Shown here: positions 880 to 41,061 of the stretch, one piece after another
How positions within the stretch are numbered: the first letter of the stretch is position 1
How the letters are laid out: each line of letters starts with the position of its first letter
Assembly: GCA_014058405.1 (NCBI GenBank)
Contig: CP047423.1
Span: 186,001-250,000 of the forward strand
Source: Candidatus Nitrospira kreftii
GTDB lineage: Bacteria > Nitrospirota > Nitrospiria > Nitrospirales > Nitrospiraceae
Length of the DNA stretch: 64,000 nt
Reading direction: 5' to 3'
Notes under the pieces: generated by a model
What the model saw: the letters and a program-made list of their open reading frames with translations, nothing else
Databases searched by the model: none
Told to the model about the DNA's origin: nothing
Program-made: the position numbers and the translations under genes

Positions 880-1990
880 TCGGGTTTCACTATGAACACC
901 AGACCCAAGCCGAACATCACCGCTCCACTGGTCAGTTTCAACCAGCGCCCGGCACGTTCCTGCAACTTTCTACGACTCAATGTGACCACGGCAATTGACA
1001 CCATGACACTATCATCAAGAATGTAGGCCAGGTTATACAACCCTAGATAACCATAGTATTTCCACGTCGGCAACTGCTGCATCGCGAGAATCTGTGTGTA
1101 AAGTGCCGGGAATCCGGCAGTACAGAGCAGTTCGATCATGTTGACGAGGCAGGCGAGTACGACAATTCCCACCATGGCTCCGGTGAGGTTCTCAGCTTGG
1201 AGTATCCCTCTCACCCTGGCGTAGAATCCGGGCTTGGCTGATTCAGGAATGCTCAATGAGATCCCGCGGTGAAGAGCAAAGAACTCTTTGACATTGACCG
1301 CCCCCACGAACAGGGCCAGGCCGCCATGAACGCAAAATAGATCAATCCGCTGAAGAGGACGAATGTTCCGGCGATGAAGGCCATCTTTCGCCGATCTTGA
1401 AGATTGACAAGCAACGACATCAGAAACAGCAATACCCACATCGCGCAGGGATTGAATCCGTCCAACAATCCGATGGTGACGGTGAACAGTGGAAGGCCGA
1501 GATCCCTCACTCGAAGCTCACCGAACCACGCGGTCTTGATGCGTTCCGCGGCGAGCGGCGCTTCTCCGGCTTGTGTGCGCTGGTCGAGCCTGGCGCGAAT
1601 CTCAGCTCCGGTTGTGTCGGAGGAGAGGAATCCCACGATTAGTTCTGTGCCTATGAGGAAGGTGGGAACGCCAATGCTGGTCATACCTCGGTCGGAAAAG
1701 AGAGCCGCGAGTCGCTGCCGCGCGGCTGAGTGATCCGCGATGTCGTAGACGAAGATCTGAAGCCCCGGTCGCTCACGCCGCAATTCGTCGAGAAAGACTT
1801 TCGCGGCTTCGCAGTGAGGGCAGCCTGCGTGCACGAAGACTTCGAGATCTGGGAACGGTTCGTCGGCTGCGGTTGGCGCCCCGCTCCCTAGTATGAGGGT
1901 GAGGAGGACAAGGCCGGTGCCGATTGCCCGGACGAACTCCCATCTGCTCTGACGATGTGGACGGAACACTACGTCTCGTTTTCTTACCAC
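864..1990 (-). pseudogene. Thioredoxin-like / DsbD-like membrane thiol-disulfide protein, frameshifted
   Basis: Two overlapping frames together make one protein. The first (from a GTG at 1990) has a signal peptide, a thioredoxin-like domain with CPHC (VHAGCPHCEAAKVFL), a cis-Pro segment (GVPTFLIG), and the first membrane helices with NPCAMWVLLF. It reaches FAFMAAW and then leaves frame. The second frame continues with LALFVGAVNVKEFF and three more helices carrying a conserved Cys (ELLCTAGFPALYTQIL), ending at 864. A net +1 or -2 base change near 1311-1320, in a GGCCTGGCCC stretch, would rejoin them. By family this is a periplasmic thiol oxidoreductase joined to a CcdA/DsbD-type electron-transfer membrane domain. 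It may be a true pseudogene, a sequencing error or, less likely, a recoded gene. The start is uncertain. Confidence 0.75.
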
Positions 1991-2139
1991 ATCAAACCCT
2001 GCCAAGCGTCTGAGGTGCGACGGCACATCCAATGTGCGTTGATCTGTCAAGGTGCCGCAGGATCTGTGACGAACAGGGCCTCGTTGGAAAGCGTGATGAG
2101 CAACTCCCATTCGGTCCAAACGAAGACCGTGAGGATCGT

Positions 2140-2412
2140 CTAATTGACGGGAGAGGGAGAGCCACTTGCTCGCTTGCCTGACAACTGCTCCACACAACCA
2201 TTGAGCGTGCCGTACTTCGGATAGTCGGTTTCCGGGATCTCTACACCGAAGGTTTTGTGGATCATGATCACGAAATTGAGGAAGTCCATCGAGTCAATAT
2301 CCAACTGATCACGGAAGCTGACGTCAGGGTTCAAGACTGTGACGTCTGCTTCCGGCGCGATCTCGCTAAGGAGGCGAAGGATCGTCTGGCTGATTTCATC
2401 CGGCGTGTTCAT
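2140..2412 (-). CDS. Acyl carrier protein
   Basis: This 90-residue protein has the acyl carrier protein fold pattern. The phosphopantetheine attachment serine sits in [11 protein letters not shown] (Ser near residue 41), and the helix after it is acidic and hydrophobic as expected. Length is normal for a free-standing ACP, with a short polar C-terminal tail. Its ATG overlaps the end of the E2 acyltransferase gene (ATGA-type overlap at 2409-2412), so it is probably translationally coupled to the 2-oxoacid dehydrogenase genes. An ACP in this position is unusual. It may receive or store an acyl group made by the complex, but no sequence evidence shows which substrate. Confidence 0.88.
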
Positions 2413-3575
2413 AGCTCCCCTGGCTCCTGTAGCAAACGATCGACGGTTGAAAGAAAGACCCCACCACGGTGGCCGTCAGTCACGCGATGATCCGCAGATA
2501 GGCTTGCCGTTACCACCGGCCTCGAGAGCACCTGTCCCTCGACGACCCAGGGGCGTTCTACAACTTTTCCAAACCCGACGAGGGCAACCTGCGGAGGATA
2601 GATGACCCCGAAGACGGTCTCTACCCCCTGCTCACCGAGGCTCGTGACGGTGATCGTGGGATCAGAGAATTCCGAACTGCGTAAGGTGCCCGCGCGGGCC
2701 CGCTTGACCACGTCTTGAAAACGCATCATCAACTCGCCAAGAGTCTGCTTGTCAGTATGGTGAATGGCCGGCGCGACGAGGCCGCCTTGGCGCAACGACA
2801 CTGCCACGCCGACGTGGATGTCCGGGCTTTGAACAGCGGCACTTTCTTTCCAAAGCGCGTTCAACTCCGGCACCTGCCGAAGCGCCAAGGCCACGGCCTT
2901 AATTAACAAGACACCATACAGGAGTCGATCCGTCACGGGGCGTTTGAGGTTTTCTTCCTTCAGCCAAGTCATGGCACGACCCATGTCGATAGTGGCGCTG
3001 AGGTAATAATGGGGAATCTCGCGCTTCGACCGTGCCATTGCGGCGGCGATGGTCTCCCGCATTCGCGCCTGGCGGTCTGCCGAAACGGTCGGTGGTTCCT
3101 TCGTCGGTGTCTCAGCCGCAGCACGGACATCCTCGAGAGCGATGGCGCCACCGGGGCCGGTGCCTTTCAGAGCTGAAGGATCGACGCGAAGTTCCGCTGC
3201 GAGCTGTTTGGCAGCGGGTGAAATGCGCAATCGACCTGGCTCGGGCGGTGGAGAGACGACCGGTTCTCTAACTGGGGAAGGGGACGATTCCTTTACCGGT
3301 GTAGCCTCAGTCCCTGCCTCACCCGGTCCAACCGGTTTTCCCTCTTCTTGGATGATGGCCATCACCGTGCCGACCGGGACCGTTTCACCGGGCTTCGTGA
3401 TCAGTTGGTGAATAACGCCGGTATAGAACGATTCAATCTCGATCGCGGACTTCTCGGTGTCCACTTCCGCGATGATCTCCCCTTTGGTCACCCGGTCGCC
3501 GGCCTTCTTCTTCCATTCGACCAACGTGCCTTGGGTCATGTCTGAGCCCAGCGTCGGCATCACAAATTCAGTCAT
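2409..3575 (-). CDS. pdhC: 2-oxoacid dehydrogenase E2, dihydrolipoyllysine acetyltransferase
   Basis: The 388-residue protein has the full E2 layout. An N-terminal lipoyl domain carries the lipoylated lysine in [13 protein letters not shown] (residues about 35-47). A Pro/Ala/Glu-rich linker follows, then a peripheral-subunit-binding domain ([19 protein letters not shown]). The C-terminal catalytic domain ends with the active-site pattern [10 protein letters not shown]. The open frame extends 75 codons further upstream, but the ATG at 3575 gives [13 protein letters not shown], the standard E2 start. It transfers the acetyl group from E1 through lipoamide to CoA in the cytoplasm. It lies in a compact operon after E1alpha and E1beta. 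No E3 gene is in the window. An acetoin dehydrogenase E2 is the main alternative. Confidence 0.92.
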
Positions 3576-25949: not shown

Positions 25950-26345
25950 TACTGAACGGCCTCCAATGCGGCGCCCTCCGGCATTACTTGCGGCGGCACG
26001 GCGAACGCTATAACACATGGGGGGCGGCACTGCGAGGCATTGCTCAGCCATGTCGAGCGCAAGCATATGTTAACCGCTATCTCTATGCTGGCCTATTCGA
26101 TTGTGCCAGCCGCGTACCGCCTGAAACCGTTGCGCGTCCACGTCCGGACCATCACCCACGATAACGGCAAAGAATTTGCCGAATACAGACACCTCGCTCG
26201 CATCCTGTACATTCAGGTCTGCTTTGCCACGCCCTATCATACAGGGGAGCGCGGTGTGAATGAGAACGAACGGCCTCATTCTGGCCTTCTTCCCAATGGA
26301 GACCGCCTTCTCTACAAATCGTCCTGCGATCGTCGAAAAGGTTGA
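25950..26345 (+). pseudogene. IS30-family transposase relic
   Basis: Fragments of an IS30 transposase lie in two frames. The first (from about 25976) reads LRHYLRRHGERYNTWG, the region before the catalytic core. The second (26040-26345) reads HVERKHMLTAIS, then VRTITHDNGKEFAEYRHLAR and CFATPYHTGERGVNENERPH, which are the D-N-G-K-E-F and P-Y-H-S-W-x-R-G-x-N-E-N blocks with changes. The domain between them is deleted and the frame is shifted, and the last part is degraded. No terminal repeats were found. It marks an old insertion just upstream of the acyl-CoA synthetase gene. Confidence 0.78.
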
Positions 26346-26416
26346 ACGTCTCCCGAACTGCCGATCCGGACAATCGCTCGGCATTCGGCATGTCAAGAGC
26401 CACGCAAGGAAATACC

Positions 26417-28252
26417 ATGCAGCACGTTGCCGTTCACCCCTCGCCGGACAGCATGACCACCGACGACGTGACGACGCTGCCCGAATTGTTGCGATGTAGG
26501 TGCCATCGTTCGCCGGAGAGAGAGGCCTACCGGCAATGGGAAGCTGGGGTATGGCGCAGGTATTCCTGGAGAGACGTGGAAGGGCTTGTCGCGCGCTGGC
26601 AGGTGGCGCTGGCTGGAGAACATCTTGCGTCAGGAGACCGCGTCGCCGTGCTGCTCAAGAACAGCGTGGAATGGGTTTGCTTCGATTTGGCGGCACAATC
26701 GCTGGGACTGGTTGTCGTGCCTCTCTATACTGCCGACCATGAGGATAATACTACCTACATCCTCGCCGATTCAGGAGCACGACTCTTGCTAGTCGGCCAC
26801 ATCGATCAATGGATTGCATTGGCCGGGCATCGCGCACGATTTCCCAAACTGTCTCACGTGCTGTGCTTGGAGATGCCGCTGTCCCCCGCGCCAGACACCA
26901 GCATCCAGGTAAGCTCTGTCAGGCACTGGTTACCCTGCGATGCAGGCCCCCAGTTTAATCTGGCCAAGGACCCGCACGCGTTGGCCACTATCGTCTACAC
27001 ATCGGGCACAACGGGGCACCCGAAAGGTGTCATGCTGTCGCATGTCAATATTCTTTCAAATGCACAAGCAGTACTCAGGCACGTGCAGGCCTATCCGGAT
27101 GATTTGTTCCTTTCTTTTCTGCCGCTGTCCCACGCATTCGAACGGACCGTCGGCTGTTACCTCCCAATGATGGCGGGCAGTTGCGTGGCCTACACACGCG
27201 AGATCGCTAAGCTGGCGGAGGATATGATGACGGTACGCCCGACCATCCTTGTATCCGTACCACGCATCTATGAACGCATATACGCGCGTCTGCAACAGCA
27301 ACTGGCGGAACGGGGCGCCTTGATGCGTGCGATTGTTCGCTGGATGCAGGAGCTTGGTTGGAGGCATTTCCAGGCAAGCCATCATCATGGCCAGGTTCCA
27401 GGCCGGGGGTCCGGCTTGTTGGGGTCAGTGCTGCATGACCTGGTAGCCGACAAAGTTCTCGCTCCTTTCGGCGGACGGCTGCGGTTGGCGGTGTCGGGGG
27501 GTGCTCCCTTGTCTGTCACGCTCTCCCGGTTCTTTGTCGGCTTAGGTCTGCCTCTGTTGCAAGGCTACGGTCTGACCGAAGCGGCACCTGTCGTGACCAG
27601 CAACCGGCTGCAAGACAATCTGCCGGAATCGGTTGGCATCCCCCTCCCTGGGGTTGAGGTCAGGCTCGGAGAGAAGGACGAATTGCTGGTGCGTGGTCCC
27701 AACGTCCTGATGGGCTACTGGAATCGGCCTGAGGATACAGCCAGGGTGATCGATGCCGAGGGCTGGTTGCACACGGGGGACCAGGCACGCATCGAAAACG
27801 GATATGTGTTCATCGTCGGGCGTCTGAAGGAGATCGTTATCCTATCCACTGGGGAGAAAGTTACGCCCGAAGTTTTAGAGCTAGCCCTCATTCTGGACCC
27901 GCTTATCGACCAGGCGATGGTGGTCGGCGAGGGCAAGCCTTATCTGGCATCGCTCTTGGTGTTGAACGCTGAGGCTTGGCGTGCCATGGCCCAAAGATGG
28001 TCATTACCTTCAGATGATCCCGTCGCATTGACCGATGTGCGTCTCCAGCAGCATATCGAGAGCCTCTGCCGCCAATCACTGGCATGCTTCCCCGAGTATG
28101 CCCAGGTGCGCCGCTTTTGGTTGACGCTGGAGCCTTGGACCGTAGACAACGGATTGCTCACACCCACACTCAAACTCAAGCGTCCTGCGATCGAAAAACG
28201 TTTCACGAAATACATTCTCGATCTGTACACCGGGCATATGCCCCCAACTTGA
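26417..28252 (+). CDS. Long-chain acyl-CoA synthetase (AMP-forming)
   Basis: A 611-residue adenylate-forming enzyme. Motifs in order: the ATP loop TIVYTSGTTGHPKGVMLSH (about residue 195), YGLTEAAPVVTSN, and TGDQARIENGYVFIVGRLKE with IVILSTGEKVTPEVLE. The long insertion after SVPRIYERIYARLQQQL is typical of the long-chain FadD15-like group. The ATG at 26417 has AAGGAAA upstream; the frame is open to 26342. It activates fatty acids to acyl-CoA through acyl-AMP. The next gene, 34 bases on, is a fused acyl-AMP ligase-acyltransferase, so the pair probably feeds lipid synthesis. Confidence 0.9.
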   Translation: MQHVAVHPSPDSMTTDDVTTLPELLRCRCHRSPEREAYRQWEAGVWRRYSWRDVEGLVARWQVALAGEHLASGDRVAVLLKNSVEWVCFDLAAQSLGLVVVPLYTADHEDNTTYILADSGARLLLVGHIDQWIALAGHRARFPKLSHVLCLEMPLSPAPDTSIQVSSVRHWLPCDAGPQFNLAKDPHALATIVYTSGTTGHPKGVMLSHVNILSNAQAVLRHVQAYPDDLFLSFLPLSHAFERTVGCYLPMMAGSCVAYTREIAKLAEDMMTVRPTILVSVPRIYERIYARLQQQLAERGALMRAIVRWMQELGWRHFQASHHHGQVPGRGSGLLGSVLHDLVADKVLAPFGGRLRLAVSGGAPLSVTLSRFFVGLGLPLLQGYGLTEAAPVVTSNRLQDNLPESVGIPLPGVEVRLGEKDELLVRGPNVLMGYWNRPEDTARVIDAEGWLHTGDQARIENGYVFIVGRLKEIVILSTGEKVTPEVLELALILDPLIDQAMVVGEGKPYLASLLVLNAEAWRAMAQRWSLPSDDPVALTDVRLQQHIESLCRQSLACFPEYAQVRRFWLTLEPWTVDNGLLTPTLKLKRPAIEKRFTKYILDLYTGHMPPT

Positions 28253-28286: not shown

Positions 28287-31109
28287 TTGAAGACATCGCA
28301 CGGACAGACTGAAACAGAATCGGATCGAGACCCTGCGTCGGAGCTTCTCGAGATTGTTCGCACACTGTCCGCTGAACTTCACCGACAGATCGGGCATGAC
28401 AGGCACATCACTCTGGACAGCTCGCTGGATCGCGATCTCGGTCTCGATAGCTTGGCGAGGGTGGAACTGATGTTGCGTATCCATCGTGCATTCGGCATTG
28501 ATCTGCCGGAGGATACCCTGGTTCGCGCCGAAACTCCCGGCGACCTGCTCAGAGCCCTGCATAGGGGGACTCGCGGATCGGCAGGTCATGCGCCGATCCA
28601 GTCCATGCCGCCGTTGGAATCTTCGCAAGGCGAAGCTGTCGCTGCCACCACCTTACTCGAAGTGATCGACTGGCATGTGCGCCGACAGCCAGACCGTATC
28701 CAGGTCATCCATCTCAGCGAAAGTGGCAAACAGCCCATCACCTATCGCGATCTGATGGAGGCATCTGAACGGGTCGCCGCAGGTCTGCAACAGCGCGGGC
28801 TTGAAGCGGGACAATCAGTGGCCATCATGTTGCCGACCTGTCCGGAGTATTTCCCTGTCTATGTTGGCATTCTGCTGGCCGGTGGTATTCCCGTGCCCAT
28901 TTATCCACCTGCGCACTTGGCCCAAGTGGAAGAACACGTCCGCCGCCATGTCGGCATCTTGAGCAACGCGCAAGCCGTCCTGCTGGTCACGATACCGGAA
29001 GCGCGAGCCGTGGCATGGCTGCTGCGGGTTCATGTGCCTTCACTGGGTCAGGTGGTGAGCACGCAGGAATTGCTGCAGTCACGAGCGTCCCTGAGCCGGG
29101 TGCCGGTGGCGGCGCAGGATGTGGCTTTTATTCAGTACACCTCCGGCAGCACGGGCGATCCCAAGGGCGTGGTGCTCACCCATGCCAACTTGCTTGCCAA
29201 CATCCGTGCCATGGGACAGGCGATCGGCCTCCGCCATGATGATGTGTTCGTGAGCTGGCTGCCTCTTTATCACGATATGGGACTGATCGGGGCGTGGCTG
29301 GGTACGCTCTACTTCGGCATTCCACTGGTCGTCATGTCGCCGCTTGCCTTCCTCGCCAGGCCCGTCCGGTGGCTGCAGGCAGTTCATGCGTACCGCGGTA
29401 CACTCTCGGCGGCACCCAACTTTGCCTATGAACTGTGTGTCAAGAAGATCGGCGAGGAAGAGCTCGTCGGACTTGATCTTAGTTCGTGGAGACTGGCATT
29501 CAACGGCGCGGAAACGGTCTTGCCGGAGACGCTGACGCGTTTTGGAAGGCGTTTCGCGCAGTACGGCTTCCACTCCGTGGCGCTCACGCCGGTCTACGGG
29601 CTGGCTGAGTGTTCCGTGGGACTTGCATTTCCGCCGCCCGGCCGCGGTCCCCTCGTCGATCGTGTTCAGCGAGAATCCTTCACGCGTACCGGCAGCGCTG
29701 TGCCCGCTGCTCCCGACGATGCCTCTTCGCTGTGCTTTGTCTCCTGCGGGCGGCCGTTGCCAGGCCATGAATTGCGGATCGTGGATGCATCCGGCAATGA
29801 ATTGGGTGAGCGGCAAGAGGGTCGAGTGGAATTCAGGGGGGCGTCGACCACACGCGGCTATTTCAACAATTCCCAGGCCACGTCACAGCTGTTCCGGAGA
29901 GGCTGGCTTGACAGCGGTGATCGTGGTTACATCGCCGCCAGTGAAGTGTTTCTCACGGGGCGGGTCAAGGATATCGTCATTCGGGGTGGGCGCAACATCT
30001 ACCCCCACGAAGTGGAGGAGGTAGTTGGCGAGATACCGGGAGTGAGAAAGGGCTGCGTGGTCGTCTTCGGCAGTCCCGACTCGGCCTCGGGCACTGAGCG
30101 GCTGGTGATCCTCGCCGAAACCCGCGAGCGCGGCCAGCGTGAACGACAGCAGCTGCGTGAGGCGATCAACACCGCAGTCGTCGAGGTGTTGGGCGAACCT
30201 GCCGACCAAGTGATGCTTGCACCGCCCCGTACCGTCCTAAAGACCTCCAGCGGCAAGTTGCGCCGCGCTGCCACGCGAGCACTGTTCGAGTCGGGATTGG
30301 TCGGCGAGCACAGGCGAGCCGGGTGGTGGCAGGTAGCCAGTCTCGCCGCGGGTGCATTGATTCCCCAATTGAACCGTTGGACGACACGGGCGGCGAATGG
30401 CGGGTTCGCGGTGTGGGCCTGGTTGGTTTTTTGCCTCGTGGTGCCGGTTGTTTGGCTGATGACCCTCTTCACCCCGCGCCCTTCCTGGGCCTGGGCAGTC
30501 GGCCGGGTCGGTGCACGGCTATTACTGTGGCTGACTGGAACGCCACTCACGGTGAGCGGACTAGAGCAGGTGCCGCGCGGGAGGCCTTGTGTGCTGGTGG
30601 CCAATCACGCCAGCTATCTCGACGGTATGGTACTGGTGGCAGCGTTGCCAGAACCGCTTGGCTTCGTAGCCAAGCGCGAATTGCTCGAGCAATTCATTCC
30701 GCGCGTCTATCTCCAGCGCTTGGGCACGGAGTTCGTTGAACGCTTCGCAGCCCACGAGAGTGTGCAGGATGCTCGGAGGCTGGAGGTCGCGCTACGCGCC
30801 GGACGTGCGTTGGTGTTCTTCCCCGAAGGCACGTTTACCCGTTCGCCCGGGTTGATGCCATTCCGGATGGGGGCCTTTATTGTGGCAGCCAACACGGGCA
30901 TTCCGGTTGTGCCAGTGGCGATCTGCGGGACCCGTTCCATTCTGCGCGACGGCCGATGGTGGCCACGGCGCGGCGCGATCACAATCACGTTCGGCACTCC
31001 CTTGCTGCCTATTGCAGATGCGCGTGACGCCTTTGCAGCAGCGGTGGTACTGCGCGATGCCGCCCGCGCTCATATTTTGCGCCACTGTGGCGAACCGGAC
31101 AGCCAATGA
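28287..31109 (+). CDS. Fusion of ACP, fatty acyl-AMP ligase and PlsC acyltransferase
   Basis: A 940-residue three-part protein. Residues about 15-90 are an acyl carrier domain with DLGLDSLARVELM. Residues about 120-690 are an acyl-AMP ligase of the FAAL type: FIQYTSGSTGDPKGVVLTH, SWLPLYHDMGLIG, YGLAECSVGLAF, IVIRGGRNIYPHEVEE and LKTSSGKLRRAATRALF. A hydrophobic stretch (AVWAWLVFCLVVPVVWLMTLF region, about 720) leads to a PlsC domain with NHASYLDGMV (NHx4D) and FFPEGTFTRSPG. Activated acyl groups could pass to the built-in ACP and then to a glycerolipid acceptor at the membrane; this is inference. The start is TTG at 28287 with GAGAGAGG upstream; no later start keeps the ACP domain. Confidence 0.9.
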   Translation: MKTSHGQTETESDRDPASELLEIVRTLSAELHRQIGHDRHITLDSSLDRDLGLDSLARVELMLRIHRAFGIDLPEDTLVRAETPGDLLRALHRGTRGSAGHAPIQSMPPLESSQGEAVAATTLLEVIDWHVRRQPDRIQVIHLSESGKQPITYRDLMEASERVAAGLQQRGLEAGQSVAIMLPTCPEYFPVYVGILLAGGIPVPIYPPAHLAQVEEHVRRHVGILSNAQAVLLVTIPEARAVAWLLRVHVPSLGQVVSTQELLQSRASLSRVPVAAQDVAFIQYTSGSTGDPKGVVLTHANLLANIRAMGQAIGLRHDDVFVSWLPLYHDMGLIGAWLGTLYFGIPLVVMSPLAFLARPVRWLQAVHAYRGTLSAAPNFAYELCVKKIGEEELVGLDLSSWRLAFNGAETVLPETLTRFGRRFAQYGFHSVALTPVYGLAECSVGLAFPPPGRGPLVDRVQRESFTRTGSAVPAAPDDASSLCFVSCGRPLPGHELRIVDASGNELGERQEGRVEFRGASTTRGYFNNSQATSQLFRRGWLDSGDRGYIAASEVFLTGRVKDIVIRGGRNIYPHEVEEVVGEIPGVRKGCVVVFGSPDSASGTERLVILAETRERGQRERQQLREAINTAVVEVLGEPADQVMLAPPRTVLKTSSGKLRRAATRALFESGLVGEHRRAGWWQVASLAAGALIPQLNRWTTRAANGGFAVWAWLVFCLVVPVVWLMTLFTPRPSWAWAVGRVGARLLLWLTGTPLTVSGLEQVPRGRPCVLVANHASYLDGMVLVAALPEPLGFVAKRELLEQFIPRVYLQRLGTEFVERFAAHESVQDARRLEVALRAGRALVFFPEGTFTRSPGLMPFRMGAFIVAANTGIPVVPVAICGTRSILRDGRWWPRRGAITITFGTPLLPIADARDAFAAAVVLRDAARAHILRHCGEPDSQ

Positions 31110-31419: not shown

Positions 31420-31701
31420 ATGGGTTACATCTTTGAATGGGACCCACTGAAAGGAGAAGCGAACGCCCGCAAACATGGCGTGACCTTTGACGAAACCACC
31501 ACCGTCTTTGGTGATCCGCTGAACCTTTTGATGGCAGATCCTGACCACTCACTTGATGAAGAACGGTTTGTGTTGCTCGGTATATCTAACCGACGGAAGC
31601 TCTTGGTGGTGGCGTTTGTCGAGCGTCCACCTCGGACCCGTCTCATTTCCGCGCGACCGGCCACTCGACAGGAGCGGAGGCGATATGAAGAAGAACGGTA
31701 G
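31420..31701 (+). CDS. BrnT-family toxin
   Basis: A 93-residue protein with the BrnT hallmarks: the start YIFEWDPLKGEANARKHGVT, then FDETTTVFGDPL, DPDHSLDEERFVLLG, and the C-terminal RLISARPATRQERRRYE. By family BrnT is a RelE-fold ribonuclease that blocks translation. The ATG at 31420 matches the family start; the frame is open upstream to 31345. It overlaps the antitoxin gene by 17 bases, the usual toxin-first arrangement of this family. Confidence 0.9.
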   Translation: MGYIFEWDPLKGEANARKHGVTFDETTTVFGDPLNLLMADPDHSLDEERFVLLGISNRRKLLVVAFVERPPRTRLISARPATRQERRRYEEER

Positions 31702-31933
31702 TCGAAAACGGCGGACGGGCGACCGTGACACGATGCGCCCTGAATACGACTTTTCTCGAGCTGTGCGTGGGGTGACGACTGCGCGGTATGCGCAGGGTGC
31801 GAACGTCGTCGTCATTGATCCGGACATTCTTGACGTGTTTCCAACCGGCGAGTCTGTGAACGAGGCGCTCCGGGCTCTCGCACCGGTTCTTCGACGGAAC
31901 CGTCGGGCCGCGGTACGACGGCGAAGCGCGTGA
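31685..31933 (+). CDS. Antitoxin of BrnT-type pair
   Basis: An 82-residue basic protein with EYDFSRAVRGVTTARYAQG and NVVVIDPDILDVFPTGESVNEALRAL, a pattern seen in ribbon-helix-helix-like antitoxins paired with BrnT proteins. It lacks the classic BrnA C-terminus, so BrnA-like is the safest name. GGAGGCGAT precedes the ATG. It overlaps and follows the toxin, consistent with a two-gene toxin-antitoxin operon that represses itself. Confidence 0.8.
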   Translation: MKKNGSRKRRTGDRDTMRPEYDFSRAVRGVTTARYAQGANVVVIDPDILDVFPTGESVNEALRALAPVLRRNRRAAVRRRSA

Positions 31934-32786: not shown

Positions 32787-34514
32787 TTACCTCGATCGGC
32801 GGATCTCTTCGTAGTGAGATGACACGACTTGATTGAGCGCCTGCCTGAGTTCCTCTCCCTGATACCGTCGGTTCGCCACCTTTCGGAGACGCGAGGCGAG
32901 TCCCCCGTCGCCGAGTGTCGACTCAGCCCACCTCACGAAATCTTCTCGGCGATCGTGATACTCCAAGCTTTCCAAGGGAAGCGTGGGGATGAGATGGGAG
33001 AGCTCGTACAAGCTGGCGGCTTCGATGCCGAGGTGCGCTTTTTCGGTACGGAAGACGAATCGCTTTCCAGGAGGGAGGGGACTATCCAGATATTTGTACA
33101 AATGACGGACATGGGGAACACGCCGAATCGCTGGGCGCATACGAACGACATCTCTGCCGCAGAGCAAGGCGCTCCCCATCGGAATCTGATTGAGATGCGC
33201 GTCCTTCAAACTGCAGGTGGTGCAGTGAGTCCGCAGATAATCTCCGATCATGTTGTCTGTGATCCGGGTGAGGAGCAGCTGGTTCAGAGAGGCGAGGACT
33301 GATTCACTGAGGCGGTCGGGACGATACGACACAAAGGCCCATCCTCCAGCCTCCAAGATGGGACGAAGCAGCGAGGTGATCTCTCCCCCTTCAAGCAGAA
33401 ATTCTTGGGCTTCATCCAGGACGATCCAATGGGGGCGGAATTTGCGCTCGCGGACAGGGCGCAAGGCACGCATCAGTTCAGCAACGTAATGACTTCGGAG
33501 CGTCACCGGATATTGGCTCAGATCCAAAACCAGAGAGACCCCTCCATCCTCGATGAGCGAGACGACTGCGGTGGGTGAGGGGAGGGTTGCTCGGTCACCG
33601 CTCATCGAGACGAAGCGCGGCAGCACGCGCAGACCACGAAAGTCTCCTTCGGGATCAATGAGAAGGACTTGATAGTCCTCGTGATGGAGTCCTTCCGCAA
33701 GCAATCCGACCATCCATGACTTACCAGTTGCCGAATTTCCGAAGACTCCCAAATTAAGGCCGGCGAGCTGTGCCGCAGGGATATGGACCGCTGTGCCGGA
33801 CTCTGTCTGCCCCAGCAGAATTGGGCGCTCCCGTTTGAGCGGGATATCAAGAAATTTGCCGCTCAATGGATACGCTTTGAGGATTTCAAGAACACCCTGA
33901 GGGCCTGGCGCCGTGGCGAGAACATCAGCTGTTTCGATGACGGCGGGAACCGCATCAGCCACCGCGACTGAAACTTCAGCTAACGTCAGCATCGAGAGGT
34001 CGTTTTCCGCATCGCCGAAGGCTGCGAGGTTTCTTGGAGACAGACCGCACAGAGCAAGCAGGCGTTCGAGCCCAGAACCTTTCGTCGCTCCGGGCGGCAG
34101 CGCCATGACCGCGCTCTTGTTGTATTCGAGCGAGGTACTGCTGCCGAGTGAGCTCAGAATATGCCACAGAGCCTGGTCATGGGGCGTCCAAGTTGCAGCG
34201 ATGGCTAGTCCACGTTCGAAGGGAATGCCTGCCTCTTCAATTGCCTTGAGCAGGCGGGGGTCAAGCTGGCCGAAAGGGAGATACGTCTCTCCGCTCGCGG
34301 TATGGCTCAGGACCGCACCGTTTTCCCATACGATCCCGCTGAACAGTTCCGCCAGATGGCCGAGCGAGACAGTTTCATACCGACGCCCCGTGACCAGAAA
34401 CAGAACATGACCGCTCGCCCGGCATTGTTCCAGCGCCGTTTCAACTTCGGGAGAGACAACTCCGTTTACGGCGAGCGTGCCGTCGAAATCGAACGCCAGA
34501 ACACGACGATACAT
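32787..34514 (-). CDS. HAD phosphatase fused to HerA/FtsK-like ATPase
   Basis: A 575-residue protein with two unrelated enzymatic parts. Residues about 1-215 are a Cof-type HAD hydrolase with all four motifs: FDFDGTLA, LVTGRR, the lysine in ATKGSGLERLL, and FGDAENDLSML. Residues about 235-470 are a P-loop ATPase of the HerA/VirD4-like class: Walker A GNSATGKSW and Walker B HWIVLDEAQEFL, with an arginine-rich segment (GRDVVRMRPAIRRV) later. The C-terminal 100 residues are charged and helical. AGAAGG lies five bases before the ATG at 34514. Each domain is well known, but I do not know a function for the fusion. A sugar- or nucleotide-phosphate switch controlling an ATPase is speculation. Cytoplasmic. 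Confidence 0.82.
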   Translation of the reverse strand: MYRRVLAFDFDGTLAVNGVVSPEVETALEQCRASGHVLFLVTGRRYETVSLGHLAELFSGIVWENGAVLSHTASGETYLPFGQLDPRLLKAIEEAGIPFERGLAIAATWTPHDQALWHILSSLGSSTSLEYNKSAVMALPPGATKGSGLERLLALCGLSPRNLAAFGDAENDLSMLTLAEVSVAVADAVPAVIETADVLATAPGPQGVLEILKAYPLSGKFLDIPLKRERPILLGQTESGTAVHIPAAQLAGLNLGVFGNSATGKSWMVGLLAEGLHHEDYQVLLIDPEGDFRGLRVLPRFVSMSGDRATLPSPTAVVSLIEDGGVSLVLDLSQYPVTLRSHYVAELMRALRPVRERKFRPHWIVLDEAQEFLLEGGEITSLLRPILEAGGWAFVSYRPDRLSESVLASLNQLLLTRITDNMIGDYLRTHCTTCSLKDAHLNQIPMGSALLCGRDVVRMRPAIRRVPHVRHLYKYLDSPLPPGKRFVFRTEKAHLGIEAASLYELSHLIPTLPLESLEYHDRREDFVRWAESTLGDGGLASRLRKVANRRYQGEELRQALNQVVSSHYEEIRRSR

Positions 34515-34626
34515 GAGCACCTTCTTACGGGAGGTTGATACAACGGATCATTGATTCACTGAAGGACGGGGCAGATAGTTCAACTCTGCTTCAGATGCTG
34601 TCCAGGGTTCAGTGGGAGTCGACTTT

Positions 34627-37622: not shown

Positions 37623-37849
37623 AAACATCATCGAACGGCAATGAATAGAGAGCCGGCGAGTGCATGATCGGGTGACGAATTCGATAGGCTGAGAGCAACC
37701 CAACAGGTAGTGGCCGCCTTGTGTTTCACCGGCTGATTCCAGCAGGGGACATATAATGAGCCGGCGGAATGGGAAGTGACAAAGACGAAACCGGCGAGGC
37801 GGCAAGCAAACCTTGTGATTGTCAGCGCACATCAGAGAGAGGACCGACC

Positions 37850-38296
37850 ATGCAGTCCCCTGATTCTACGGCTGAACCTGACAGGACGTGGGAACACTTT
37901 CCCCATGAAGCCGATATCGGCGTGCGGGGAATCGGTCCGACCAAGGAGGCAGCGTTCGAACAGGCCGCACTGGCACTAACCGCCGTGATCACAGACCTGG
38001 CCATGGTTGCTCCGGTGCAAACCGTGTCTCTTACTTGTGAAGCGCCTGACGAGGAGCTGTTGTTGGTTGATTGGCTCAATGCGCTGGTCTACGAAATGGC
38101 CACACGGAAGATGCTGTTCAGCCGGTTCACCGTTCGCTTCAACGGCCATTCATTGCACGCAACGGCCTGGGGAGAGCCCATCGACGTCGCGCGACATCAA
38201 CCCGCTGTCGAAGTGAAAGGCGCGACCTATACCGAGTTGTCTGTGAAGCAGGATGAGCAGGGTCATTGGATAGCGCAATGCGTGGTTGATGTATGA
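37850..38296 (+). CDS. Archease
   Basis: A 148-residue protein with the archease pattern: [20 protein letters not shown] at the start, [14 protein letters not shown] in the middle, and [20 protein letters not shown]-like late segment (here [19 protein letters not shown]). The conserved acidic residues that bind Ca and help RtcB turn over are in place (HEAD; late Asp). Archease activates RtcB guanylylation and multiple turnover in RNA ligation. The rtcB gene is 146 bases downstream on the same strand, with a palindromic element between. AGAGAGAGGA precedes the ATG. Confidence 0.9.
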
Positions 38297-38420
38297 CAGG
38301 CTGTTGAAAAAGCCAGCCAGCTGCGTTCTCGCGTCGCTCAAGGCCTCAACGTACCAACCGTGTACGCCTCCGGCCTTTCGCTTGCTGCGGCCTTGCTGGG
38401 CAGTCTTTTTGAACAGCCTG
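38297..38420. repeat. 124-bp long palindromic (REP/MITE-like) element
   Basis: The ends are near-perfect inverted repeats: CAGGCTGTTGAAAAAG at 38297-38312 and CTTTTTGAACAGCCTG at 38405-38420, with one mismatch. Inside, AAGGCC...CGTAC and GTACG...GGCCTT form a nested inner palindrome around 38339-38380. The whole element can fold into one long hairpin. From memory, similar elements recur between genes in Nitrospira genomes; only one copy was found in this window. It separates archease from rtcB and begins one base after the archease stop codon. Confidence 0.75.
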
Positions 38421-38442
38421 CGTATAAAATGATGAGGTGTTT

Positions 38443-39873
38443 ATGGATCTCAAATTATTGAAACGACGCGGGCGAGATGAATGGCACATTTCTCCTCGCG
38501 GCAAGATGTTGGTACCGGGGGTCATCTATGCCACCGAAGATTTGATTCACGACATGGACGAGAAAGTGTACGAGCAAGTGACCAACGTGGCGACGTTGCC
38601 TGGGATCGTTCAGGCCTCCTATGCGATGCCCGATGCCCATTGGGGCTATGGGTTTCCGATCGGCGGGGTCGCGGCATTCGATCCTGATCTCGGAGGGGTA
38701 GTGTCAGCCGGTGGGGTGGGTTTCGACATTTCCTGCGGCGTTCGCCTGCTCCGCACGGGTCTTGCGGGCGAGGACATTCAGCCGGTGAACGAGCTGCTGG
38801 CCGAGGCCTTGTTTCATCGCATTCCTGCTGGCGTGGGAAGCACAGGGACGGTGCACTTGGATCGGCAGGAGATGGACGCCATGCTCGCCGGAGGGGCCAA
38901 ATGGGCTGTGGGGAAGGGCTACGGGACGCATGAGGATTTGGAATTCATCGAGGAGCATGGCTGCATGGCCGGCGCCAAACCCGAGCATGTCTCGGATCAC
39001 GCCAAGAAGCGCCAACGAGATGAAATGGGAACGCTCGGCTCAGGGAACCACTATCTCGAAGTGCAACGCGTCGTGATGGTGTTTGATGAAGAGGCGGCGT
39101 CGGCCTTTGGAGTGCGAGAAGGCGACATCGTGGTGAGTATTCACTGCGGCTCGCGTGGACTCGGTCATCAGATCGGCACCGAATTTCTGAAGAGCATGGT
39201 TATCAGCGCGGCGCGCCACCATATTGAACTGCCCGATCGTGAGTTGGCCTGCGCCCCGATTAATTCCGAACTGGGAGAAGAATATCTCGGCGCAATGCGG
39301 GCGGGAATCAATTGCGCGCTCGCCAATCGTCAAATCGTCACGCATCTCGTCAGGGAAGTCTTTGCCGAGCTCCTGCCGCAGGCGACACTCTCACTCCTCT
39401 ACGACGTGTCCCATAATACCTGTAAGGTCGAGGAACACGACATCGACGGAACGCCGACTCGTCTGTTCGTCCATCGCAAGGGCGCGACGCGGGCGTTCGG
39501 TCCCGGACATCCCGATCTTCCTCCGCCCTTGCGGGCCGTGGGGCAGCCGGTCCTGATCGGAGGCACAATGGGCACGGCCTCGTATGTGCTTGTGGGCACG
39601 AAGGAGAGCATGTCGCTGGCCTATGGGTCCGCCTGTCATGGAGCCGGTCGGAGTATGAGCCGCCACCAAGCCCTTCGCCAGTGGCATGGCCGCGAGGTGG
39701 TAAAGGACTTGGCCGGGCGCGGGATTGTGATCCGCAGCCCATCCATGCGGGGCGTCGCCGAAGAAGCGCCGGGTGCCTATAAGGATGTCAGCCAGGTGGT
39801 GGACGCGGCGGATGACACCAAGCTGGCACGGAAGGTGGCCAGGCTGGAACCACTCATTTGTGTGAAGGGATAG
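38443..39873 (+). CDS. rtcB: RNA-splicing ligase RtcB
   Basis: A 476-residue protein covering the full RtcB family. The Mn-binding and active-site residues are visible: AMPDAHWGYGFPIGGVAAFD, GGVGFDISCGVRLLR, GTLGSGNHYLEVQ, VSIHCGSRGLGHQIG, YDVSHNTCKVEEH, and the guanylylated His in YGSACHGAGRSMSR. It joins 2',3'-cyclic phosphate and 5'-OH RNA ends with GTP. The ATG at 38443 has GAGG upstream; a GTG two codons earlier is possible. Archease upstream is its activator, and a possible rtcA stub occurs at 63.4 kb. Confidence 0.95.
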   Translation: MDLKLLKRRGRDEWHISPRGKMLVPGVIYATEDLIHDMDEKVYEQVTNVATLPGIVQASYAMPDAHWGYGFPIGGVAAFDPDLGGVVSAGGVGFDISCGVRLLRTGLAGEDIQPVNELLAEALFHRIPAGVGSTGTVHLDRQEMDAMLAGGAKWAVGKGYGTHEDLEFIEEHGCMAGAKPEHVSDHAKKRQRDEMGTLGSGNHYLEVQRVVMVFDEEAASAFGVREGDIVVSIHCGSRGLGHQIGTEFLKSMVISAARHHIELPDRELACAPINSELGEEYLGAMRAGINCALANRQIVTHLVREVFAELLPQATLSLLYDVSHNTCKVEEHDIDGTPTRLFVHRKGATRAFGPGHPDLPPPLRAVGQPVLIGGTMGTASYVLVGTKESMSLAYGSACHGAGRSMSRHQALRQWHGREVVKDLAGRGIVIRSPSMRGVAEEAPGAYKDVSQVVDAADDTKLARKVARLEPLICVKG

Positions 39874-39901
39874 AATCACCGGAGATACAACGGAGGCTAC
39901 G

Positions 39902-40066
39902 ATGGTGAAGTCGGAGCAAAGGGGACAGAATGCAGAAGAAAAACGAGAGGCGAAACTGCCGTGCGAAGAGCCCAGCTATTGTCTTTTCTGCGGCGTGGTG
40001 GGGCCGGCGCTGTTGTATGGCCACTGGTGCGGAGATGACGGCGGGAGGTTCATTGCGACGGTCTAG
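39902..40066 (+). CDS. 54-residue Cys-containing small protein
   Basis: A short frame with ACGGAGG before its ATG. The first half is charged and disordered; the second reads PSYCLFCGVVGPALLYGHWC, with a CxxC pair and a third Cys that could bind a metal. It lies 28 bases after rtcB on the same strand. No family recognised. The ribosome-binding site and cysteine pattern make it more likely real than chance. Confidence 0.5.
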   Translation: MVKSEQRGQNAEEKREAKLPCEEPSYCLFCGVVGPALLYGHWCGDDGGRFIATV

Positions 40067-40125
40067 ATCGTCATGGCATCAACGATCCCCGGCGTGATCG
40101 ATTGAGCAGCCGGAAATGAGGCGCT

Positions 40126-41061
40126 ATGGAATTCAAGGATTATTACAAAACTCTCGGTGTCGGACGGACGGCCACAGCCGAGGAGATCAAGCGGGCCTAT
40201 CGCACCCTGGCGCGCAAGTATCATCCGGACGTCAGCAAGGAGTCCGGAGCTGAGGCGCGCTTTAAAGAAATCGGTGAAGCGTATGAAGTCCTGCAGGATC
40301 CGGAGAAGCGCGCTGCCTACGACCAACTCGGGACTCGCTGGCAGGCAGGACAGGACTTTACGCCTCCGCCCGATTGGGGGGCCGGATTCGAATTCGCCCC
40401 CGGCAGATTCTCCACGGCGGAAGCCGCCGAGTTCAGCGACTTCTTTTCCAGTCTCTTTGGCAATTTTGCTCGTCACGGCGATGCGAACCGGGCTCGCGGC
40501 GAGGACCGTCATGCGAAGGTCGTCATTCCGCTCGAAGATGCATTTCATGGGGCAACCCGCACCATCACGCTGCGCGCGCCCCAGCTGGATGCGCAGGGCC
40601 GTGTGGTGCTGCGCGAACACACGCTCAACGTGCGGATTCTCAAAGGCATTCGCGATGGCCAACTGATCCGTCTGGCTGGTCAAGGCGCGCCGGGCGTGGG
40701 CGGCGCGCCCGGGGGCGATCTCTATCTGGAGGTCCACTTTGAGTCTCATGCCTTGTACCGTGTGGAGGGCCACGATCTTTCGTTGACTCTGCCGCTTACC
40801 CCGTGGGAGGCGGCGCTCGGCGCGACAGTCAAAGCGCCGACCCCGGTCGGTGTGGTCGAGGTGAAAATTCCTCCGGGTTCGCAAAGCGGGCGGAAGCTTC
40901 GGCTCAAGGGCCGGGGGATTCCCGGCGAACCAGGGGGTGGTGATCTCTATCTCGTCCTGGATGTGGTGCTGCCGCGGGCGGACACGGAGCGGGCGAAGGA
41001 GCTGTATCATGCGATGGCCCGAGACCTGGCCTTCAATCCGCGCCAGGCCCTCGGGGTATGA
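40126..41061 (+). CDS. cbpA: Curved-DNA-binding-type J-domain chaperone (CbpA)
   Basis: A 311-residue DnaJ-family protein. The J domain (residues about 1-68) has [20 protein letters not shown] and the HPD motif in YHPDVSKE. A Gly/Phe-poor linker follows, then the two-part C-terminal substrate domain ([40 protein letters not shown]-like). The zinc-finger repeats of DnaJ are missing, which is diagnostic of CbpA. It stimulates DnaK and binds DNA or the nucleoid. The next gene, 11 bases on, is its modulator CbpM. Confidence 0.92.

Follow-up and report, generated by a model that had tools for sequence, protein, structure and literature searches.

What might a bacterium do with a single protein that joins a HAD phosphatase to a HerA/VirD4-class ATPase? 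This question is raised by one gene in the window, by which we mean the whole stretch of 64,000 nucleotides of Candidatus Nitrospira kreftii that was analysed (contig CP047423.1, positions 186,001 to 250,000). A preliminary description of this DNA had proposed that both enzymes, with their motifs intact, lie in one 575-residue chain, and profile searches, fold and conservation in 63 family members bear this out. While this domain call was right for the HAD and ATPase parts, it missed a third domain, OrfY/DUF5752-like, at residues ~480-572. We consider the resulting three-domain architecture near certain. The gene and its translation signal are placed as follows:

32787-34514, minus strand: gene of the 575-aa HAD-IIB/HerA-core/OrfY-like fusion protein (ATG at 34514, stop at 32787-32789)
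34520-34526, minus strand: Shine-Dalgarno-like AAGAAGG, 5 bases 5' of the ATG, recognised from the sequence

The open reading frame encodes a single intact chain without internal stops, preceded by what appears to be a good ribosome-binding site before the ATG; because the AAGAAGG overlaps an alternative GTG start, the ATG is the likelier start. Full-length orthologues without inner stops were found in the genomes of 10 relatives, nine of them at 83-87% identity and one at 65%, and the identity reaches 89% in named Nitrospira MAGs. In the comparisons with six orthologues, every domain gave dN/dS values of ~0.03-0.11 wherever an estimate of dS was possible (one HAD-domain comparison was saturated), and all three domains are thus under strong purifying selection. 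Together, the uninterrupted orthologues and the low dN/dS values indicate that this is not a chance open reading frame. The AlphaFold2 model of the whole chain has a mean pLDDT of 92.3 and a pTM of 0.83.

The N-terminal domain is a phosphatase of the HAD-IIB subclass, matched by Pfam Hydrolase_3 (89.5 bits, cut-off 20.9) and by the subclass profile TIGR01484 (63.8 bits, cut-off 41.8), and it falls under the cut-off of every one of the substrate-specific NCBIfam models listed. In a fold search with the AlphaFold2 model, residues 1-224 matched the HAD-IIB protein 1wr8 (PH1421; Z 26.4, 2.3 Å, 218 residues aligned), which is the closest solved fold and is named phosphoglycolate phosphatase in the PDB. 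The C2B-type cap and all of HAD motifs I to IV (DxD, T/S, K and DxxxD) are present, with the residue conservation given here and below counted over 63 family members from many phyla:

33855-34514, minus strand: HAD-IIB phosphatase domain, residues 1-220, with a short C2B-type cap as in PH1421 (profile and fold)
34482-34490, minus strand: HAD motif I, D9-x-D11, each aspartate kept in 61/63 members (of the two exceptions, one is cut short by the end of its contig)
34389-34391, minus strand: HAD motif II, T42, kept in 63/63
34080-34082, minus strand: HAD motif III, K145, kept in 63/63
33999-34013, minus strand: HAD motif IV, D168-AEN-D172, both aspartates kept in 63/63

The four motifs and the fold over residues 1-220 are shared with HAD-IIB phosphatases such as PH1421 and TA0175, with their small C2B cap, and those of the Cof/YidA/SupH type. 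Unlike these enzymes, the window protein continues beyond its HAD domain with a P-loop ATPase and an OrfY-like domain.

The second domain is an ATPase core of the HerA/FtsK superfamily, with a match to Pfam DUF87/HerA of 30.4 bits (cut-off 23.2). In the AlphaFold2 model, residues 231-473 superpose on HerA 4d2i with a Z of 27.3 at 2.1 Å, with 231 residues aligned of ~350 spanned in 4d2i, and the HerA subunits of Sir2-HerA and DUF4297-HerA are also among the best structural matches. ABCB1, which appeared among the PDB matches, was rejected as a relative: it shares the P-loop ATPase motifs, and HerA ranks first in the fold search. The core and its conserved elements are the following:

33090-33833, minus strand: HerA/FtsK-superfamily ATPase core, residues 228-475, lacking both the HAS barrel and the helical insertion (profile and fold)
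33717-33740, minus strand: Walker A, GNSATGKS, residues 259-266, with K265 kept in 63/63
33411-33416, minus strand: Walker B, D367-E368, with E368 in 63/63 and D367 in 58/63 (E in the other 5)
33264-33266, minus strand: R417, at the arginine-finger position, aligned with the HerA arginine of '..IIMRIVNP' (pairwise alignment)
33090-33107, minus strand: R470-H471-xx-K474-Y475, hinge to the C-terminal domain, with R, H and Y in 63/63 and K in 60/63

The ATPase core, the Walker A and B motifs and, in this clade, the arginine-finger position resemble HerA of S. solfataricus (4d2i) and T. kodakarensis (9x1m). On the other hand, the window protein differs from HerA and from HerA-effector systems in that it has neither the HAS barrel, nor the helical insertion, nor a NurA, Sir2 or DUF4297 partner, and in that its C-terminus is an OrfY-like domain. 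No HAS barrel was found in the window protein, where the HAD domain occupies the N-terminus instead and the HerA match begins at residue 227-232, as against residues ~110-157 of HerA itself. The helical insertion was not found either, the aligned blocks lying 16 residues apart compared with ~120 in T. kodakarensis HerA, a distance taken from a weak pairwise alignment. The conserved HerA arginine of '..IIMRIVNP', which we take to be the arginine finger, has a counterpart in 20 of 23 members of the window's clade and in 7 of the 40 remaining family members, most of which may therefore not use the HerA arginine finger.

The C-terminal domain was recognised by Pfam only barely above the cut-off (PF19027, DUF5752; 24.2 vs 23), and the same profile matches 22/63 family members. 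Folded separately, it reached a pLDDT of 95.6, and OrfY of Thermoproteus tenax (4CSO) was its sole confident PDB match in Foldseek (probability 1.00, 2.2 Å). A sequence profile of the domain also recovers both halves of OrfY with an E value of 3.4e-17.

32799-33077, minus strand: OrfY/DUF5752-like domain, residues 480-572, in single copy (profile and fold)

It is thus the same module as in OrfY and Pfam DUF5752. While OrfY and the stand-alone DUF5752 protein of the same genome carry two copies, the window protein holds one, within an enzyme. The archaeal OrfY was deposited as a transcription factor, a name that comes from the deposit only, and no paper on DUF5752, OrfY or 4CSO was found in open-access full text.

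The fusion is widespread. A scan of ~85,000 genomes yielded at least 391 confirmed relatives, the best 79 of which belong to Nitrospirota, Chloroflexota, Acidobacteriota, Actinomycetota, Pseudomonadota, Cyanobacteriota/Melainabacteria, Planctomycetota, Myxococcota, Gemmatimonadota and Rokubacteria. The distribution is patchy, with the family present in 20/59 relatives, and in one genome pieces of a window-type pseudogene (G012:C3:469315-470206) lie ~6 kb from the TreY gene. The genome of Ca. N. kreftii itself, a single 4.13-Mb contig, also carries a full-length paralogue that is 30% identical, and the OrfY/DUF5752 module is found in both the window-type and the paralogue-type subfamilies. The HAD tree and the ATPase tree each recover the window's clade, made up of Nitrospira, some Chloroflexota and one Sedimenticola, as one side of a branch, which is consistent with the two domains having evolved or travelled together. 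Besides, a HAD relative without fusion partners occurs on a Nostoc plasmid and is 54% identical to the HAD domain of the paralogue.

The preliminary description knew of no characterised protein with this pairing, and this was fair, as no paper on the HAD-HerA fusion was found in open-access full text. The three-part fusion is nevertheless common across phyla, and databases give it generic hydrolase names only; in RefSeq, its members are called 'HAD-IIB family hydrolase', 'HAD hydrolase family protein' or 'HAD family hydrolase'. Among them are proteins of ~570-600 aa from S. meliloti pSymB and a plasmid of Synechococcus PCC 7502, named 'HAD-IIB family hydrolase', which are homologous over their full length and have the same three-part layout; they are ~30% identical to the window protein and group with the paralogue subfamily.

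The strongest functional clue is a receiver domain fused to the protein in three Chloroflexota, where the chain is extended to 739-764 aa by an N-terminal PF00072 domain (E 1e-18 to 1e-20):

L051:5464-7755, receiver-fused member (PF00072 profile)
L056:5524-7758, receiver-fused member (PF00072 profile)
L057:5554-7770, receiver-fused member (PF00072 profile)

Each of these genes lies directly 3' of a gene for a PAS/GAF or GAF histidine kinase, so that in these loci a two-component system seems to have the fusion protein as its output. This gives independent support to the signalling link that had been suggested for the window protein. Both active sites are conserved across the 63 members, and the HAD nucleophile has been lost in the receiver-fused copy of L056, indicating that not every member depends on phosphatase activity. 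A second copy without receiver domain lies close by in L056, at 1654-3411. In the Chloroflexota class of L057, the family was present in 3/120 evenly sampled genomes, including the seed genome; it is therefore patchy in this class, and its receiver-fused form is rare.

The gene neighbourhoods point to scattered themes. Among the loci compared, no neighbour or operon partner was conserved across the whole family, and the envelope role that had been put forward finds no conserved partner in its support. The recurrent themes are stress-type genes (CBS, USP, PRC-barrel, BON, Hsp20 and catalase) and, in some genomes, carbohydrate genes, although no carbohydrate family recurred among 154 near neighbours. 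Six relatives of the window gene in Nitrospirota have a predicted CBS-domain-like gene ~20-105 bp upstream on the same strand; synteny among the Nitrospira loci may reflect kinship only. In the paralogue subfamily, the gene adjoins genes for trehalose-6-phosphate synthase, a debranching enzyme and GT4 in Aminobacter, has two GT4 genes directly upstream in Caballeronia and adjoins USP/CBS genes in Agrobacterium. A Paraburkholderia locus has GT4, PQQ dehydrogenase and Mn-catalase genes nearby.

The stand-alone DUF5752 gene of Ca. N. kreftii lies inside a trehalose cluster, together with genes for TreY, a maltokinase-type protein, a trehalase-type GH15, TreS and TreT. This trehalose/glucan cluster (L154, G000:C1:2902000-2921000) also contains GlgE-like GH13 (no NCBIfam match), GT2-like and MscS-like genes. 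The paralogue subfamily co-occurs with TreY (8/8, Fisher p 0.005, with kinship ignored), whereas the window-type subfamily showed no co-occurrence with TreY or with stand-alone DUF5752 in its genus (6/13; p 0.48 and 1.0). A trehalose link is thus seen only for the paralogue subfamily.

The window itself holds several other genes on the plus strand. At 31420-31930, the gene of a BrnT RNase toxin (PF04365, E 4e-23) is succeeded by a small, overlapping open reading frame (31685-31933) that is BrnA-type antitoxin-like and has no Pfam match. At 37769-41061, genes for Archease, the RNA ligase RtcB and a DnaJ-type chaperone follow each other in an RNA-repair cluster. At 28287-31106, a 940-aa protein combines an acyl-carrier site, an AMP-binding enzyme and an acyltransferase, and an open reading frame 5' of its gene (26342-28252) is acyl-CoA synthetase-like by the appearance of its sequence.

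Based on the domains and their distribution, we propose that the window protein is a phosphatase that is controlled by ATP, linked to stress and directed at a small substrate of the sugar-phosphate type. This is our best explanation, to which we assign a probability of roughly 0.4. The HAD domain of this enzyme, most likely cytosolic, would remove phosphate from a small phosphorylated metabolite of the sugar-phosphate or phosphoglycolate class, a substrate class that we infer from the HAD-IIB assignment and the nearest folds. The ATPase core, probably self-assembling via a HerA-type interface, would act on the phosphatase as a switch or scaffold that depends on ATP, with control presumably running from ATPase to phosphatase, and not as a processive DNA motor. 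That HerA parts are missing and that most other subfamilies have no arginine finger suggests this preference, and the distribution of the arginine (20/23 in the window's clade, 7/40 elsewhere) favours a switch over a motor for the family as a whole. The OrfY-like domain might bind a ligand or partner that reports the carbon or osmotic state, and the fusion protein would work under stress or in carbohydrate reserve metabolism. In some Chloroflexota, the added receiver domain would put it directly under a histidine kinase.

Several other explanations have to be weighed against this phosphatase. The protein could be a DNA-associated machine, with a HerA core that travels on DNA or clamps it and a HAD domain that clears away ends bearing phosphate, or else phosphoglycolate, a compound that arises in DNA repair and is released by it. 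The HerA core fold, the arginine finger of the window's clade, the phosphoglycolate-phosphatase-like protein as the closest HAD fold and a predicted DNA-ligase-D-type protein near the gene in a few loci would fit such a role, and the window protein itself keeps R417, so that a motor function is conceivable for this particular member. However, the DNA-translocating ATPase of the preliminary description is weakened by the loss of the HAS barrel and the helical insertion and by the fact that members outside the clade mostly have no arginine finger, which make DNA translocation doubtful; HAD-IIB enzymes typically act on small molecules, and no NurA- or nuclease-type partner recurs among the neighbours. 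We therefore regard this explanation as quite unlikely. A role in defence had also been suggested, and the protein might be an anti-phage system akin to Sir2-HerA or DUF4297-HerA with its effector fused in cis, given that the HerA cores of these systems are among the best structural matches and that the protein itself gives weak PADLOC matches to mad8 and HerA. Neither a HAS barrel nor an adjacent effector gene was found, there were no phage matches, and no defence family recurred convincingly among the neighbours; the strong purifying selection and metabolic-type phosphatase also argue against defence, which is highly improbable.

The balance between the domains could also be different from the one that we propose. 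The protein may be a regulatory ATPase whose HAD domain serves chiefly for sensing or interaction, with the real output exerted by the OrfY-like domain on transcription or on a protein partner, as would agree with the deposition of OrfY as a transcription factor, with the receiver fusions behind histidine kinases and with the lost nucleophile in one of them. HAD catalytic residues that are intact in 61-63 of 63 members, the lack of a match to any recognised DNA-binding family and the fact that OrfY's own function is known from the name of a deposit make this rather unlikely. The RefSeq naming, the stand-alone HAD relative on the Nostoc plasmid and the patchy occurrence of a dispensable gene, of which G012 holds pseudogene remnants, could instead indicate that this is simply a HAD-IIB housekeeping phosphatase, for which the ATPase and the C-terminal part provide no more than stability or localisation. 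This appears decidedly doubtful in view of the nearly invariant Walker residues and of a selection on the ATPase that is about as strong as that on the HAD domain.

More speculatively, the ATP-controlled phosphatase could represent a signalling enzyme of a new class, in which an oligomeric HerA-core ATPase gates a fused sugar-phosphate phosphatase, which carries in addition an OrfY-type module for a metabolite or partner, and which in Chloroflexota would become a direct histidine kinase output (receiver-HAD-HerA-OrfY); this extension is possible, but we hold it to be improbable. We see in the family a good experimental target, whose signalling variant is open to test, rather than a unique find. 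HerA-type ATPases have been studied as DNA motors and as phage-defence platforms, and here the same core occurs without the partner-binding parts of HerA, in one chain with a phosphatase and with a module that is common to a trehalose cluster, in about ten phyla. The receiver-domain fusions offer a direct experimental handle, with a switchable signal input and a measurable phosphatase output. If our proposal is true, a P-loop motor fold would have been reused for the control of a metabolite phosphatase.
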